DNA of 64,000 nucleotides from Anaerolineae bacterium. GTDB lineage: Bacteria > Chloroflexota > Anaerolineae > UBA4142 > SHND01. The translations under genes and the position numbers were made by a program. The stretch spans positions 62,001 to 126,000 of the forward strand of contig JAJTXZ010000001.1 in assembly GCA_021463195.1 (NCBI GenBank). The letters are read 5' to 3'. This document shows, in pieces, positions 13,141-53,300 of the stretch. A model generated the notes under the pieces. That model ran no database searches. It saw only the letters and a list, made by a program, of their open reading frames with translations, and was not told where the DNA came from. Numbering within the stretch: the stretch's first letter is position 1; the number at the start of each line of letters is the position of its first letter.

Positions 13141-13255
13141 TTTTCGGGCGAATCGAATTCGCGGCAACGAGAAAGTCTGCCGCCGCAGACTAGATTTTCA
13201 ATCTGCGAAGGCAGGTTCCGCGTTTTTATTGCGCGCGAATTCGATTCGCCCAAAA
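13141..13255. repeat. MITE-like element with 18-bp perfect terminal inverted repeats
   Basis: GGGCGAATCGAATTCGCG (13146-13163) is mirrored by CGCGAATTCGATTCGCCC (13234-13251), with TTTT and AAAAA continuing the symmetry outside. Inside is a second hairpin, AGTCTGC-CGCC-GCAGACT (about 13174-13191). The core recurs at 38191 and 51976. The 13002-13380 gap between the divergent SUMF1 lipoprotein and lutA holds this element, the lut promoter region and no gene. Confidence 0.75.
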
Positions 13256-38190: not shown

Positions 38191-38283
38191 GGCGAATCGA
38201 ATTCGCGCGCACAAATACACGAAACGTCCCTGCGGACGTTCGCGCAGACTAGTTTGCGATTGCGAATGTTCTTGATTCGCCGC
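38191..38283. repeat. Second copy of the GAATCGAATTCGC element, degraded
   Basis: GGCGAATCGAATTCGCG at 38191-38207 matches the terminal repeat of the 13146 element. Inside are ACGTCC/GGACGT (about 38224-38239) and GCAGACTAG, the latter shared with the 13141 copy. The right terminus is reduced to GATTCGCCGC (near 38274). The 38140-38574 gap contains this copy, the 52-bp palindrome and the fadD promoter, and no gene. Confidence 0.6.
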
Positions 38284-38365
38284 AGACTTGTGTTCTGGTT
38301 GCCGCGCTTTCCAAGCGCTTGAGATGATTTCCAAAATTTGGACGCACGCTTGCTTTAAATTTGAC

Positions 38366-38456
38366 TGGTGATTGCCCGGATTTCCAGACCCTAAGGGTTT
38401 TCGAAAACCCTTAGGGTCTGGAAATCCGCTGCGTTTTCGAGATGTGGATAATCGCC
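38366..38456. repeat. Palindromic element, copy 1 (52-bp perfect palindrome at 38377-38428)
   Basis: The left arm CGGATTTCCAGACCCTAAGG continues GTTTTC, and the right arm 38403-38428 is its exact reverse complement, with no unpaired loop. Outer arms GGTGATT (38367-38373) and AATCGCC (38450-38456) also pair, across an internal loop containing GCGTTTTCGAGA. A second copy is at 52011-52102. Confidence 0.9.
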
Positions 38457-38469
38457 AGAAATTTGACGG

Positions 38470-38499
38470 TTGACAGTCATAGAACCGTTACGGTAAAAT
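38470..38499 (+). promoter_or_regulatory. Sigma70-like promoter of the acyl-CoA synthetase gene
   Basis: TTGACA (38470-38475), 18-bp spacer, TAAAAT (38494-38499). The leader is about 70 nt, with AAGGAG before ATG 38575. Confidence 0.7.
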
Positions 38500-38574: not shown

Positions 38575-40293
38575 ATGGAGCGAGTGTGGTACAAGAATTA
38601 TGAAAAGGGAGTTCCGACGACGTTGGATTATCCGAAAACTCCTTTGTTTGGTTTATTGGATAATGCGGCGGCGGAATATCCTGACCGCGCGGCGATTATT
38701 TTTGGCGCAGTGGCGCACAAATTGCCCGGGCAACCGCTGCTGGATGCGACTCTATCGTATCGCGCTTTGCGCGACGCGGTCAATCATTTCGCGAATGCGT
38801 TGGCGCAAATGGGCGTCAAAAAGGGCGACCGCGTCGCGATTTATCTGCCCAACTCGCCGCAGTTTGCGATTGCCTATTATGGCGCGTTAAAGGCGGGCGC
38901 GGTGATTGCGCCGGTGAATCCGATTTACACGCCGCGCGAGTTGGAATTTATTTTGCAGGATTCGGGCGCGGAAACGATTGTGGCGCTGTCGCAATTTTAT
39001 CCGAAACTGCAAGAGGTGCGCGCCAAAACAAAACTCAAGCGCGTCATTGTCGCCAACATCAAAGAATATTTTCCGCCATTTTTGAAAATGCTGTTTACGT
39101 TGGCGATGGAAAAAAAGGAAGGGCATCGCGTAGACCTCGTGGCGGGCGATGTCTGGTTCCAGGACGTTTTGAAAAACGCCGGCGCCGTGCCGCCCAAAGT
39201 GGATGTTCAGAGCAATGATGACGCAGTGCTGCTTTACACCGGCGGCACCACCGGTTTGCCCAAGGCGGCGCAGCTCACGCACAGCAATTTGCTCGCCAAC
39301 GCGGTGCAGCTGCGCGCGTGGATTCCTTGGGCAAAAGAGGGCAACGAAGGTTTTCTCACCGCGCTGCCGTTATTCCATTCCTACGCCATGACGACGTGTT
39401 TGAATGAAGCGATGCTCTTGGCTGGCACATTGATTTTGATTCCGAATCCGCGCGATCTAGTGCATGTGTTAAAAGCGATTGACCGCCACAAGCCGTCATT
39501 CTTTCCCGGCGTGCCGACCCTCTATACCGCCGTCAATAACAATCCTGAGGTCGTCAAATACAATTTGCGTTCGATCAAAGCATGTGTCAGCGGCGCGGCA
39601 GGTCTGCCGGTCGAGGTCGCCAAAAAATTTGGCGAAATCACCGGCGGGCGTTTGGTGGAAGGATATGGTTTGAGCGAAGCGTCGCCGGTTGTCACGGCGA
39701 ATCCGATTTATGGCGAGAACCGTATTGGGACGATTGGCTTGCCGATGCCCGACACGGATGTGAAATTGATGGACATTGAAGGCGGGACCAAAGAAGTGCC
39801 GATTGGCGAGCCGGGCGAATTGTGCGTGCAGGGGCCGCAAGTGATGAAGGGATATTGGAATAAACCGGAAGAGACGGCGAAAACGATTCGCGATGGATGG
39901 CTGCATACGGGCGATGTCGCGGTAATGGACGCGGATGGCTATTTTCGCATCGTGGACCGTTTAAAGGAAATGATTATTTCAGGCGGTTACAATATCTATC
40001 CGCGCGAAATTGAAGAAGTGTTGTATCAACATCCGGCTGTGTTGGAAGCCGCCGCGATTGGCGTGGCGGACTCGTATCGCGGTGAATCCGCCAAAGCTTT
40101 TGTCGTATTGAAAACGGGGCAAAAGGCGACAGCGGACGAGTTAATCGCGTTCTGTAAACAAAATCTCGCGCCGTACAAAGTGCCGCGCGCGATTGAATTT
40201 CGCGAAGCGTTGCCCAAGACAATGATTGGCAAGATTCTACGGCGCGAATTGGCGGCGGAAGAAAAAGCCAAAGCGGCGCAAACCAAACAATAA
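38575..40293 (+). CDS. fadD: Long-chain fatty acid-CoA ligase
   Basis: Activates fatty acids to acyl-CoA through an acyl-AMP intermediate. The 572-residue ANL-superfamily enzyme has the AMP-binding loop LLYTGGTTGLPKAA (about 218-231), VEGYGLSEASPVV, the hinge GYFRIVDRLKEMIISGGYNI and the C-terminal catalytic Lys in KTMIGKILRREL. ATG 38575 follows GAAAGGAG. It is a single-gene unit between a strong promoter, placed next to the palindromic element, and a clear terminator. Confidence 0.95.
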   Translation: MERVWYKNYEKGVPTTLDYPKTPLFGLLDNAAAEYPDRAAIIFGAVAHKLPGQPLLDATLSYRALRDAVNHFANALAQMGVKKGDRVAIYLPNSPQFAIAYYGALKAGAVIAPVNPIYTPRELEFILQDSGAETIVALSQFYPKLQEVRAKTKLKRVIVANIKEYFPPFLKMLFTLAMEKKEGHRVDLVAGDVWFQDVLKNAGAVPPKVDVQSNDDAVLLYTGGTTGLPKAAQLTHSNLLANAVQLRAWIPWAKEGNEGFLTALPLFHSYAMTTCLNEAMLLAGTLILIPNPRDLVHVLKAIDRHKPSFFPGVPTLYTAVNNNPEVVKYNLRSIKACVSGAAGLPVEVAKKFGEITGGRLVEGYGLSEASPVVTANPIYGENRIGTIGLPMPDTDVKLMDIEGGTKEVPIGEPGELCVQGPQVMKGYWNKPEETAKTIRDGWLHTGDVAVMDADGYFRIVDRLKEMIISGGYNIYPREIEEVLYQHPAVLEAAAIGVADSYRGESAKAFVVLKTGQKATADELIAFCKQNLAPYKVPRAIEFREALPKTMIGKILRRELAAEEKAKAAQTKQ

Positions 40294-48529: not shown

Positions 48530-50155
48530 ATGAGCGTTCTGCTTGCGCTGCTTCCAGTTTTGTGTTTGTTCGGCGGGGCGTTGTTGTATCTCTTGCCGCT
48601 GCCGCTTATTTCCCGTTACCGCAATGGCATTCCGCTGCTGGCGCTCGGATTGAGCGCGGTAGCATTGACGTTTTTGGCGCGCGCGTCCACTGCGCCGATT
48701 GATTTGTTTGAATCGAGCGCGATGCTGCCAGAGCTAACGCTGACGCTGCAATGGAATGGCGCGGCGCTGCCGTTTGGCTTGTGTTTATTGGCAATGATGG
48801 CCGCGCGCGTTTTGATGGCGCACGCTCAAGATACGCGCGCGTTCCTGATTGGTTTGTTGACAGTCAGCGGCGGCGCGTTGTTATTTTTGGCGGCGGATAA
48901 TTTTACGTCGGTGGCGGCGGCTTGGCTCATTGTCGAGTTCGGTTTGCTGATAGCGCCGGACCCGGACGCGGATTCGCGCGCGCGTGTGACGACGGCGTTT
49001 GCGTGGAATCTGGCAGCCATTGCGCTGTGGTTGAGCGCGGGGATGATTTTGGCGAATCGAAACATTTCGCTGCGCCTGACGGAAATGGAGTTGCAAGGGG
49101 CGGCGGTGCTTTTGGTTTTACTGTCATTGTGGATTCGGAGCGGTTTGTATCCGGCGCACGCGGCGGCGCCGAGCGATGTATCGGGCGCGTCGGTGCGAAT
49201 AGGCATTCCGCTTTTGTTGGGCGGTTACTTGATGACGCGTTTGTTGGTGGCGATGCAAGCCAGCATGGCATTCGCGAACGAATTCATGATTTTGGCGGCG
49301 TTGGCAATCGGCGCGAGCGCGTTGGTGACGGCGGGACAATGGCATAGCGGAAACGCGTTTATTTGGATGCTGCGCGCGTTTGGCGCGAGCTTGTTGTTAG
49401 CGCCCTTTATTGGCAGGACGCCGGAACTTGTGTCGGCGAGTGTATGGCTCACGCTCGCCGCGTTCATGTTGGCAGTGTGGACGAGTATTGCGTGGTTATG
49501 GCGTGGCGAATTGGCGCGCTTGCGTTTGACGATGTTGGTGTGGCTTGTGCCGCTATTTGTGGCGGCGGCGCTGCCGCTGTCGCCCGCGTTCTTGGGGCGC
49601 GTGGTTCTATTGAATGGCGCGCACACGATGGGCGTGGCGTGGTGGCTGCTGTTGGTCGTCTGCGCGGCGTTGTATTTGATTCCGATTTGGCGCGAAATTT
49701 TGGCGAGCCGCGATATTGCGCCCAAACCGCCGACGCGGTTCGAATACGCGGCGTTAGGCATGGCGTTGCTACCCGCGTTGTTAATCTTGGTCGCGCCGAA
49801 TTTTTTCATGGCGCCGTTTGGCGCGGCGGCGCAAACCGGCGCGAGCGTGCCAGTCAACTTGTTATTGAAACCGGTCGGCGTAACGGGATTGGCGTTTATT
49901 GTCGCGGGTTTGATTGTGCCGCTGTTGACTTGGTTTGAATTAGCGCGCCAGCGCGCGCTGCGCGCCGCGATTTTGCCGCAAGCGCTGACCGAATTTTTAG
50001 ATTTGAGCGTTGTCGGCAAGGGCTTGGTTCGGATATATCATTTTTTGCGCGCGCTTGTGCTGTCGAGTTTGGCGCTACTGGAACAGCCGCCGATTGCATG
50101 GCTTTTCTTTTTGGCGATTTGGGCGGCGGTGTGGATTGGCGGGCTAGCGCGCTAG
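48530..50155 (+). CDS. Divergent proton-antiporter-like membrane protein (NuoL/M/N or MrpA/D superfamily)
   Basis: A 541-residue protein with about 14 hydrophobic helices. Two stretches recall the antiporter-type subunits of complex I and Mrp: LLFLAADNFTSVAAAWLIVE, with a membrane Glu near residue 137, and SLWIRSGLYPAHAAAPSDVSG followed by LLLGGYLMTRL, equivalent to the PFHxWLPDAHxxAPxxVS/KxGxYLLxR block. The Lys usual in that block is Arg here. It stands alone, with no other complex I or Mrp genes nearby. Ion translocation is therefore possible but unproven. It is preceded by an extended -10 box 9 bp from the ATG. Confidence 0.65.
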   Translation: MSVLLALLPVLCLFGGALLYLLPLPLISRYRNGIPLLALGLSAVALTFLARASTAPIDLFESSAMLPELTLTLQWNGAALPFGLCLLAMMAARVLMAHAQDTRAFLIGLLTVSGGALLFLAADNFTSVAAAWLIVEFGLLIAPDPDADSRARVTTAFAWNLAAIALWLSAGMILANRNISLRLTEMELQGAAVLLVLLSLWIRSGLYPAHAAAPSDVSGASVRIGIPLLLGGYLMTRLLVAMQASMAFANEFMILAALAIGASALVTAGQWHSGNAFIWMLRAFGASLLLAPFIGRTPELVSASVWLTLAAFMLAVWTSIAWLWRGELARLRLTMLVWLVPLFVAAALPLSPAFLGRVVLLNGAHTMGVAWWLLLVVCAALYLIPIWREILASRDIAPKPPTRFEYAALGMALLPALLILVAPNFFMAPFGAAAQTGASVPVNLLLKPVGVTGLAFIVAGLIVPLLTWFELARQRALRAAILPQALTEFLDLSVVGKGLVRIYHFLRALVLSSLALLEQPPIAWLFFLAIWAAVWIGGLAR

Positions 50156-50171
50156 TCGCTTTATACATCCC

Positions 50172-50211
50172 AAAGCGCAAAGGGTTTACGTCCTTTGCGC
50201 TTTTTCTTTTT
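50172..50211 (+). terminator. Rho-independent terminator after the antiporter-like gene
   Basis: AAAGCGCAAAGG (50172-50183), 8-base loop, CCTTTGCGCTTT (50192-50203), then TTCTTTTT. Confidence 0.85.
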
Positions 50212-50277
50212 CGGACGCGGAACAAAATAAAAATATTCTGCGTCCATTATTCAAATCTCATTAGAGGAGAAAAGAGA

Positions 50278-51030
50278 ATGAACCGATTTTTTCAAGTTGT
50301 CGGCGTTACGGCGCTCGGCGCGGCAGCATTGCTTGGGATGATAGTATGGTCGGCAAAAACCCCGAGCGTCCAAGCCGCGCCCGCGCAAGCCGATGCCGCG
50401 CCAACACGCGTGATTGTGGTGTCGGGCGCAGGACGCGTGAGCAGCGCGCCGGATCAGGCAAGCATTTCGATTGGCGTTCAAATTACCGCGCCGACTTTGG
50501 CGGAAGCCACGCAGCAAGCGGCGGCGAACATGACCAAATTGCTGGACGCTATCAAGGCGCAGGGCGTTGACCCCAAAGATATCCAAACCAGCATTTACAA
50601 TGTCAATCCTATCACGAACTATAAAGAAGGACAGCCGCCGCAAATTACCGGTTATCAAGTGATGAATGTGGTTAATGTCATGGTCAAAAATTTGGACAAA
50701 GTGGGCAGCGTGCTGGACGCGGGCATGGGCGCGGGCGCGAATTATTTGGGCGGCATTTCATTCAGCATTGCCGACACCAAGACATTAGAGACCAATGCGC
50801 GCGTGTTGGCGGTTCAGGATGCGCAGCAAAAGGCGCAGACGCTCGCGCAAGCGGCAGGCGTTAAATTGGGTCGCGTGCTGTTGATTACTGAAGGCGTGAG
50901 CGTTAGCGCGCCGTCGCCGCTGCCATATGGGCGCGCGATGGCAGCCGATGCCGTTGCGCCCGGTCCGACACAAGCGGGTTCGCTGGAAATTTCCACGAAT
51001 GTTGAAATGCGATTTGAAATCGCGGAATAA
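50278..51030 (+). CDS. SIMPL-domain (DUF541) secreted protein, first of a tandem pair
   Basis: Exported protein of the SIMPL/DUF541 family, whose biochemical role is not settled; some members limit oxidative stress. The 250-residue protein has a signal peptide (about 8-33, ending SVQA) and the DUF541 pattern VSGAGRVSSAPDQASISIGV, LAEATQQAAANMTKLLDAIK, VDPKDIQTSIYNVNPI and a C-terminal VEMRFEIAE. ATG 50278 follows GAGGAG; the open frame upstream overlaps the previous gene and terminator. A paralog follows after 12 bp. Confidence 0.9.
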   Translation: MNRFFQVVGVTALGAAALLGMIVWSAKTPSVQAAPAQADAAPTRVIVVSGAGRVSSAPDQASISIGVQITAPTLAEATQQAAANMTKLLDAIKAQGVDPKDIQTSIYNVNPITNYKEGQPPQITGYQVMNVVNVMVKNLDKVGSVLDAGMGAGANYLGGISFSIADTKTLETNARVLAVQDAQQKAQTLAQAAGVKLGRVLLITEGVSVSAPSPLPYGRAMAADAVAPGPTQAGSLEISTNVEMRFEIAE

Positions 51031-51042
51031 GGAATCGAAACG

Positions 51043-51807
51043 ATGAATGCGCTAAAAAAAATCGCGCTGCCATGGATATTGGCTGGCGGCGCGCTCGCGG
51101 GCATTATGGTTTTAACGCTGTGGACGCAGACTGGCGTCAAGACGGCGCGCGCGCAGAGTCCGACGCCGAACGCGCCGCGCGCGGAAATTGGCGTGTCGGG
51201 AATGGGGCGCGTGTTTGTGACTCCCGATATCGCGCTTGCGTCCATTGGCGTTGATATTACCGCGCCGACGCTTGCCGAAGCGACGAAACAGGCGTCCGAA
51301 CAGATGACGGCGGTACTCGATGCGCTTCGGGCGCAAGGCGTAGCGGCGCAAGATATTCAAACCAGCAGTTACAATGTATATCCGATTACGAATCAACCGA
51401 AAGAAAATGAGACGCCGAAAATCACCGGCTATCATGTGACCAACATTGTCACGATCAAGATTCGCAAGATCGCGAATGTGGCCCAAGTATTGGACGCGGC
51501 GATTGCGGCAGGCGCGAATTCGGTCAACAATGTCATGTTTACGGTGGACAATCCCGCCAAAGCGCAAGACGAAGCGCGTGCGCTAGCGGTGCATGACGCA
51601 ATGGCAAAAGCGCAAACGCTGGCGACAGCTGCCAGAGTCAAAGTTGGCAACGTTACGGTCATTAGCGAATTGTCGGGCAATGTTCAACCGATTTTCAAGA
51701 TGAGGGATTCTTTCGGCGCCGAAGCCGCAGGCGGCGCGGGGCCGGTGGAAGCGGGGCAGAATGAAATTACGGTAACGGTTGAAATGCGTTTTGAAATTAC
51801 GCAATAG
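51043..51807 (+). CDS. SIMPL-domain (DUF541) secreted protein, second of a tandem pair
   Basis: A 254-residue paralog of the preceding gene with the same order of motifs: signal peptide (about 8-35), ISGMGR-type strand (GVSGMGRVFVTPDIALASIG), TKQASEQMTAVLDALRAQGV, QDIQTSSYNVYPI, and a C-terminal VEMRFEITQ. The two differ in the middle and in the variable loop near residue 215, so the duplication is not recent. Co-transcribed; a terminator follows at 51907. Confidence 0.9.
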   Translation: MNALKKIALPWILAGGALAGIMVLTLWTQTGVKTARAQSPTPNAPRAEIGVSGMGRVFVTPDIALASIGVDITAPTLAEATKQASEQMTAVLDALRAQGVAAQDIQTSSYNVYPITNQPKENETPKITGYHVTNIVTIKIRKIANVAQVLDAAIAAGANSVNNVMFTVDNPAKAQDEARALAVHDAMAKAQTLATAARVKVGNVTVISELSGNVQPIFKMRDSFGAEAAGGAGPVEAGQNEITVTVEMRFEITQ

Positions 51808-51862: not shown

Positions 51863-51906
51863 CCACAAACGAATTAGGAATTTGCTCTAATAACGATTCG
51901 GTTGTC

Positions 51907-51945
51907 AAAAAAAAAAAAAGACGCGCGCAAGCGCGTCTTTTTTTT
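51907..51945. terminator. Strong bidirectional terminator after the SIMPL pair
   Basis: A run of 13 A precedes GACGCGC (to 51926), loop GCAA, then GCGCGTC (51931-51937) and a run of eight T. Confidence 0.9.
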
Positions 51946-51975
51946 GGCGATTAACTACAACTGGGGCCAGTTTGC

Positions 51976-51994
51976 GGATGAATCGAATTCGCTC
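51976..51994. repeat. Third copy of the GAATCGAATTCGC core
   Basis: GGATGAATCGAATTCGCTC matches the terminal repeat of the 13146 and 38191 elements. It is followed by ACAACTAGATTTTT, which shares ACTAGATTTT with the 13141 copy. It lies 17 bp before the second palindromic element. Confidence 0.6.
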
Positions 51995-52010
51995 ACAACT
52001 AGATTTTTTT

Positions 52011-52102
52011 GATGATTACTCGGATTTTCAGACCCAAAGGGTTTTCGAAAACCCTTTGGGTCTGAAAATCCGCCGCGTTTTCGAGAGGTGGGTAATCGCC
52101 AG
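52011..52102. repeat. Palindromic element, copy 2 (52-bp perfect palindrome at 52021-52072)
   Basis: CGGATTTTCAGACCCAAAGG plus GTTTTC (52021-52046) and its exact reverse complement (52047-52072). Compared with copy 1 it differs at arm positions 8 and 16, each compensated in the other arm. Outer TGATTAC and GTAATCG (52013-52019 and 52092-52098) pair. The internal segment GCGTTTTCGAGA is the same. The 51808-52205 gap holds the terminator, these repeats and the nurA promoter. Confidence 0.9.
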
Positions 52103-52117
52103 ATTAGATTTTTTTGA

Positions 52118-52146
52118 TTGACACACATCCTGTCCGCGCATACAAT
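52118..52146 (+). promoter_or_regulatory. Sigma70-like promoter of nurA
   Basis: TTGACA (52118-52123), 17-bp spacer, TACAAT (52141-52146), about 60 bp before ATG 52206. Confidence 0.75.
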
Positions 52147-52205: not shown

Positions 52206-53300
52206 ATGCCGGAAACCTTTATCGGGCAGTTGAATGAACGCTTGACGAAAAAACGCGACGAATTGAAAAATAATTTGCATCAGAGCGGCAAACAGATTGA
52301 TGCGGAATTGAGCGCGCGGACGTTGGAACATTGGCATTCGCCGCTGCCGACGGCGCGCGCTTTGCCAAAACGTCCCGCGTACGCGATTGATGGTTCGCGC
52401 CGCCGCGCCAATCTGGTGAACGGCTCGACCGTTTTTGTGGCGCAGGCGTTGGTGATGGGCGAAAGCGTCAATGAACCGCTGACCGATATTGAAATTCTGC
52501 CCGGCATAGTGCGCGCGGAAACGATGGACCGTTTTGCGGATTTGATGCTGCGGCGTTTGGAAATTAATCTCGCGAGCGAATACGCGGCGAAAATTCCGCA
52601 AGGCAGTATTTTGTATCTCGACGGCGCGATTTATGGCATGTTGCCGCAGCTATATCCGCTGCGCGGCGAAGGCATTCCTAGCGACCGCGATTACGGCACG
52701 CTGCTTTTGGAAGATTATCGCAATTTGTTCGCGCGCTGCGCGGCGCGCGATATTTTATTGTTGTCCGTCGCCAAAACGAATCGGCAGGCGCTGCTTTCGA
52801 AAATCATTCAACGCGATTTGGGCCGCAGTGAAATTATCGAAATCACCGACAGCGCGCTGTTGGATGCTTTGACTGAACGCAAACCGGGATATTCGACGCC
52901 GCTGCTGTTGGGACGCCACAGTTTCGAGCAAGGCAAATCCAATGTGGTGTTGGAGGACGCGCGCGTCCGCGACGAGCCCGCCATTATTTCGTTTTTCGTG
53001 CGGCTCGCCGAAATGGATGATTTGCTGCGCGTGGATGTGCCGGCGAATTGCGTCGGGCGCGGCGAGCGCATCGGCGATGTGGACGCGGAATTTTTGGACG
53101 CGCCGAGCGCGCGGCCATTGGTGGAATTATTGCAAGCCGATTATGGCGGCATTCAAGTTTATAACGCGCTGTTGTATGTGACCGATCTTGAAGTGCGGCT
53201 CTCGAAAGACAAGATGTATAATATCTATCTGCCAATGGTCGCCGAAGTGTTGGGCGAGGAATTGCGTATTGATCGCAGCGAACGACGCTTTGTGGATTGA
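52206..53300 (+). CDS. nurA: NurA-domain nuclease
   Basis: NurA family 5'-3' nuclease; archaeal members process DNA ends with the HerA ATPase, and bacterial ones are less studied. The 364-residue protein has the two metal-binding segments of the family, AIDGSRR with Asp62 and LYLDGAIYG with Asp139, and downstream conserved ELLQADYGGIQVYNALLY and MVAEVLGEELRID. A HerA/FtsK-type ATPase is not in the window. ATG 52206 follows GGCGAGGAG. It is co-oriented with the RlmI-type methyltransferase after a hairpin. Confidence 0.88.
   Translation: MPETFIGQLNERLTKKRDELKNNLHQSGKQIDAELSARTLEHWHSPLPTARALPKRPAYAIDGSRRRANLVNGSTVFVAQALVMGESVNEPLTDIEILPGIVRAETMDRFADLMLRRLEINLASEYAAKIPQGSILYLDGAIYGMLPQLYPLRGEGIPSDRDYGTLLLEDYRNLFARCAARDILLLSVAKTNRQALLSKIIQRDLGRSEIIEITDSALLDALTERKPGYSTPLLLGRHSFEQGKSNVVLEDARVRDEPAIISFFVRLAEMDDLLRVDVPANCVGRGERIGDVDAEFLDAPSARPLVELLQADYGGIQVYNALLYVTDLEVRLSKDKMYNIYLPMVAEVLGEELRIDRSERRFVD

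Follow-up and report, generated by a model that had tools for sequence, protein, structure and literature searches.

Bacterial transposons are usually thought to choose loose DNA targets or, as in the case of Tn7 and the CRISPR-associated transposons, one guided site. The family of elements analysed here resembles several described systems in part. With prokaryotic MITEs, as presented in the available part of PMC10969869, it shares short length, lack of autonomy, terminal inverted repeats (TIRs), target duplications, intergenic position, hairpin formation and a parent IS that could be found; this part of the source assigns such elements to intergenic or AT-rich places, reports that some of them carry promoters and mentions no fixed offset to resident promoters. 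The Tn5/IS50 and IS10 groups of the IS4 family (PMC2266710) are alike in having a single-ORF DDE transposase in ~1.3-1.5 kb, CT- ends and duplications of 8-9 bp, and a promoter-linked target is not described in that paper, from which the word 'promoter' is absent. In a similar manner, Ty3 of yeast uses the transcription machinery to integrate within a narrow window immediately upstream of genes, a behaviour that has been presented as a paradigm of harmless integration (PMC8632968), but it is a retroelement of a eukaryote, is directed to Pol III genes and shows no homology to the present family. The PATEs of Haloquadratum are likewise transposase-free repeats with palindromes; unlike the elements described here they have neither TIRs nor target duplications, and their relatives are of the IS605 type (PMC3119063). 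In the literature accessible to us, whose coverage is incomplete and does not prove novelty, no description of promoter-targeting insertion sequences was found, and promoter targeting of nearly base-pair precision by an IS4-type MITE is apparently undescribed so far. Here, we analysed two palindromes in a 64-kb window (the whole stretch of DNA under study). Very probably, they are the interiors of IS4-type MITEs with CTGGTGATTRCCC ends, which are mobilised in trans and targeted by the transposase to positions upstream of promoters.

Two 94-bp elements and their family

An earlier note on this DNA had reported two loop-free perfect palindromes of 52 bp with two compensated differences, and both were confirmed at 38377-38428 (copy 1) and 52021-52072 (copy 2). 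They differ at arm positions 8 (C/T) and 16 (T/A), with the opposite arm matching each time. The window contains the core pattern twice, compared with 0/100 shuffles, and single-stranded DNA folding of both copies is far better than that of shuffled sequences (z -10.9 and -9.9). Each palindrome belongs to a unit with the layout CTGGTGATTRCCC - palindrome - CTGCGTTTTCGAGATGT - GGRTAATCRCCAG. The conserved flanks seen previously consist of a linker and terminal inverted repeats, and what had been taken for a second, outer pair of arms corresponds to the TIRs of 94-bp elements. The features of the two loci are as follows (all on the + strand):

38357..38364, +, left target-site duplication AAATTTGA of copy 1, direct repeat at 38459-38466
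38365..38458, +, MITE copy 1, 94 bp, TIRs CTGGTGATTGCCC / GGATAATCGCCAG
38377..38428, +, 52-bp perfect palindrome within copy 1
38459..38466, +, right target-site duplication AAATTTGA of copy 1
38470..38499, +, promoter TTGACA-18-TAAAAT, 11 bp past copy 1 and upstream of the gene at 38575, also in the relative G001 (L338)
38575..40293, +, 572-aa ORF downstream of copy 1, putatively named AMP-binding / acyl-CoA ligase-like from sequence features
51998..52008, +, left target duplication ACTAGATTTTT of copy 2, 1 mismatch versus 52103-52113
52009..52102, +, MITE copy 2, 94 bp, degraded left TIR TTGATGATTACTC
52021..52072, +, 52-bp perfect palindrome within copy 2
52103..52113, +, right target duplication ATTAGATTTTT of copy 2
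52118..52146, +, promoter TTGACA-17-TACAAT, 15 bp past copy 2, element-free in G001, G004 and G003
52206..53300, +, 364-aa ORF downstream of copy 2

The target duplication of copy 2 was probably lengthened in a T run. Orthologues of the acyl-CoA ligase-like ORF were present in 6/6 genomes of the genus, and those of the 364-aa ORF in 5/6. Just upstream of copy 2 (window 51900-51950) lies an intrinsic-terminator-like hairpin, GACGCGCGCAAGCGCGTC, with A and T runs at its sides, and two adjacent similar ORFs (window 50098-51030 and 51043-51807; 72% identity over 152 nt) are apparently a tandem duplication. A second short palindromic repeat, GGCGAATCGAATTCGC, is found at window positions 13147-13163, 13234-13250, 38191-38207 and 51977-51993 (three exact, one degraded), and sequences similar to it adjoin several MITE copies (L007, L026, L028).

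The Chloroflexi genome from which the window was taken is assembled in 143 contigs (4.72 Mb), several of which end within the repeat, so that all copy numbers are assembly-based. Genome-wide, the 18-bp core gave 96 matches with ≤2 mismatches (forward and reverse counts were equal, the core being palindromic), the right end 57 and the left end 71 matches with ≤3 mismatches, and 93 non-redundant matches were counted among the fetched loci of this genome. Each of the two palindromes forms the middle of one copy of a MITE family with ~90 members, in agreement with the earlier proposal of a repeat family that is mobile and present in many copies, which extends to relatives as well; a local duplication as the origin of the two copies is ruled out by this number. 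Two copies are identical to the consensus, suggesting fairly recent activity. Direct repeats of 7-9 bp flank 86/129 elements with both ends known (own and other genomes) compared to ~1 for shuffled flank pairs, and the duplicated targets are 69% AT. The copies are inserted DNA transposons bounded by terminal inverted repeats: they are short, carry no transposase gene, have duplications of uniform length, and their ends match those of a transposase-bearing element (L304) and of deletion derivatives in the genome G084.

The right-hand TIR in its ancestral form (CTGGTGATTACCCACATC) was detected with ≤1 mismatch in 42/298 genomes of the class, versus only one of them for the pattern read backward. 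When named genomes were searched for an exact 17-mer, many Chloroflexi gave matches, e.g. Thermoflexia G79, NC_groundwater_1871 and _1493, Anaerolineae CG2_30_57_67 and K_DeepCast. Single, apparently intragenic 17-mer matches in unrelated phyla are probably due to chance, and phage records gave no match.

A transposase linked to the element ends

In the window's own genome, no copy of an L304-type transposase or of an autonomous element was detected by our search, and the first candidate for the latter, L170, was discarded because its ORFs are unlike a transposase. G084 contains long and internally deleted versions of the element with transposase fragments between the ends, and a search with one of these fragments led to L304 in the genome G106. 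This 1453-bp element carries TIRs of the same end type as the MITEs (CTGGTGATTACCCATATC and CCGGTGATTACCCATAAGTC); its duplication is TTTACA(A/T)T (8 bp), and its only ORF has 439 aa and a TTG start. Outside of the element lies the promoter ATTGTAAACTG-TTGACT-17-TATAAT. The ORF had no match in Pfam, and by itself it matched the NCBIfam IS4 model NF033590 only weakly (4e-5, far under the NCBIfam IS4 cut-offs); a profile of the transposase family including a relative from Thermus plasmids matched the Tn5 transposase at 3e-8. Candidate catalytic residues (ALDP, DSGGDD and RIEHGY) align as well, and the direct repeats of 7-9 bp compare with the ~8-13 bp of the IS4 family. The IS4 motif Y(2)R(3)E(6)K (PMC2266710) is degenerate in L304 (W..R...E......D/Q) and present in the Thermus relative; since Y and K are replaced, we call the transposase IS4-related and do not file it as an IS4 member. 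The Thermus plasmid transposase (WP_008630830 / WP_008632315) resembles the L304 type with 26% identity over 386 aa and with ends that share TTACCCACATC, and differs from it by its intact YREK and by ends beginning with CAGG. When three sequences were used to predict the structure of the transposase, the pLDDT was 35, too low for use. As judged from its sequence, the L304 ORF encodes a putative, distant IS4/Tn5-like DDE transposase. An enzyme of this kind would mobilise the MITEs in trans, and its cut would be staggered by ~8 bp, giving rise to the duplications of 7-9 bp.

Position of the elements relative to promoters

Offsets were counted outward from the element ends (n=287). An exact TTGAC was present 10-12 bp outside 68/287 ends versus 1.7 expected (p 6e-86), and TATAAT with ≤1 mismatch 33-35 bp outside 59 ends versus 5 expected (p 4e-44); the reverse word GTCAA had no peak at the 10-12 offset. 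Promoters scoring ≥9/12 at this offset accompanied 34/84 elements of the own genome and 46/74 elements of other genomes, compared to 0-2 at shifted offsets, and the remaining elements (50/84 and 28/74, about half) had no recognisable promoter at the offset. For the strong promoters, the -35 hexamer was found at an offset of 10 (22 cases), 11 (32) or 12 (6), i.e. in 60/67. In the own genome the promoter was faced by the right end in 23 and by the left end in 11 cases, indicating that the orientation is not fixed. The offset was seen in at least 15 assemblies and also at transposase-linked ends (L302, L304, L305, L306, L308, L310, L311, L313, L315, L325 and L326). ORFs of ≥100 aa begin within ≤400 bp of 32/34 promoters, a figure which in a GC-rich genome was not counted as evidence. 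Regardless of their orientation, the elements sit ~11 bp in front of sigma70-type promoters, which remain intact. This promoter-proximal target is the most unusual property of the family and was absent from the earlier note. At L167, L202 and L240, both sides have promoter-like sites at this offset, which places the element between divergent promoters.

G001, G004 and G003 have kept the promoter of copy 2 (TTGACA-17-TACAATTAGCACAAAAGTTC) but lack the element there, and that of copy 1 is kept in G001 (TTGACAGTC...GTTACGGTAAAATG) without the MITE, the flanks of the relatives at both loci being too diverged for base-exact empty sites. These element-free promoters indicate that, at the two loci, the promoter was most likely there before the element arrived. 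In G001 (L338:1300-1420), a stand-alone AGACC hairpin (AGACCCCAAGGGTTTT...AAAACCCTTGGGGTCT) is situated 9 bp upstream of copy 1's promoter, and stand-alone AGACC palindromes may prefer the same kind of target.

If the -10 hexamer is taken to span -12 to -7, the duplicated 8 bp would be centred near -42, at the upstream edge of the -35 region contacted by sigma70. Our targeting analysis covers standing insertions, from which we infer that the fixed offset arises from target choice at integration; the simplest account would be that integration is targeted to promoters by the transposase or its binding partner. Insertion in either orientation would place one end ~11 bp upstream of the -35 hexamer and leave the core promoter intact, so that the host probably tolerates it. 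What is read could be the DNA of the -35 and -10 hexamers or an RNA polymerase bound to the promoter. Tentatively, we consider that a Chloroflexi/Thermus lineage of IS4/Tn5-like elements might recognise promoter-bound RNA polymerase or sigma factor and integrate at this upstream edge.

As a sub-question of this explanation, it is possible, though less likely than not, that what the transposase reads is a short DNA word, TTGA/TTGAC at +10 to +12, rather than the promoter; the association with promoters would then follow from TTGACA being the -35 hexamer and from the purging of genic insertions. The IS copies on Thermus plasmids, to which the promoter-offset rule apparently extends, carry TTGA 9-13 bp outside one end in 5/6 sites, and one of these copies (L334) is apparently intragenic, for which reason word reading is kept as a serious rival; some ends also have TTGAC without a -10. 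However, TTGAC at 9-13 bp was followed by a -10 in 41/72 cases versus 10/61 at other places in these flanks (p 2e-6) and 54/1050 in own-genome loci at large, and even ends without any -35 had -10s at 33-35 bp in 9 cases versus 2.6 expected (p 0.001). This excess of -10 hexamers speaks for a functional promoter rather than the word alone.

We regard it as unlikely that insertion was untargeted and that selection kept the copies just upstream of promoters, as harmless insertions, insulators or regulatory sites. The promoters left intact by the elements and the strong hairpins in many interiors (43/59 with z below -3 versus mononucleotide shuffles) would fit such selection, but the offset stays within about ±1 bp even though the interiors are unrelated, across many genomes, for either orientation and at transposase-bearing copies, for which selection after random insertion is not an easy account; regions between convergent 3' ends, for example, would be harmless too and should be no rarer. 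If targeting by the transposase is true, landing at a promoter distance of ±1 bp throughout the genome would constitute a general bacterial 'safe harbour' strategy and a bacterial counterpart of the safe-site targeting of Ty3; the elements would mark promoters in uncultured Chloroflexi and might provide a tool to place cargo beside promoters without gene breakage.

Palindrome arms and interior modules

Over the 83 alignable own-genome copies, 234 arm changes were one-sided and 96 symmetric, and 18 copies were perfect palindromes. General selection for arm pairing, which the earlier note had deduced from the covarying arms, is not supported: uncompensated arm changes, named there as evidence against the idea, were found, and the other such outcome, only two copies explained by local duplication, was not. 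More than half of the symmetric changes (55/96) fell on the two positions described there, 44 on position 16 and 11 on position 8. Position 16 is symmetric in 71/83 copies with C, T, A or G, which calls for arm homogenisation or palindrome exchange. Template switching within a palindrome at replication is an ordinary route to homogenisation, exchange with stand-alone palindromes being the alternative, and the arms would probably have been partly homogenised by one of these routes.

Elements bounded by paired TIRs measure 55-271 bp, and their interiors, mostly rich in hairpins, are wholly unlike between genomes; in G030, identical ends enclose the palindrome AGACCTCGCGGGTTTTGAAAACCCGCGAGGTCT. 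The AGACC...GGTCT palindrome also stands alone, without TIRs, in many relatives, which together with the other interiors in the family points to a module of another repeat type; within the MITEs it would be a separate, exchangeable module derived from a resident repeat. Y1 transposons have neither terminal inverted repeats nor target duplications. That the palindromes represent a structured RNA under selection or a REP/REPIN-like element copied through a hairpin by a Y1 (RAYT) transposase, as proposed earlier, is very improbable and largely refuted, since the perfect arms and the four-base symmetry of position 16 are outweighed by the predominance of one-arm changes, the lack of a matching Rfam family, the TIRs and 7-9 bp duplications, the unrelated interiors within identical TIRs elsewhere and ends that lead to an IS4-like DDE transposase.

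In the MITEs of G004 (L281, L296 and L298-L300), the interior carries the half-unit of the AGACC palindrome, but turned inside out (AAAACCTTCGAGGTCTCGGAGACCTCGAAGGTTTT). Those of Thermoflexia G79 (L147, L163, L174 and L207) have long hairpins of the CACAGAG type as interiors (CACCACAGAG...CTCTGTGGTG), which bear no relation to the AGACC palindrome.
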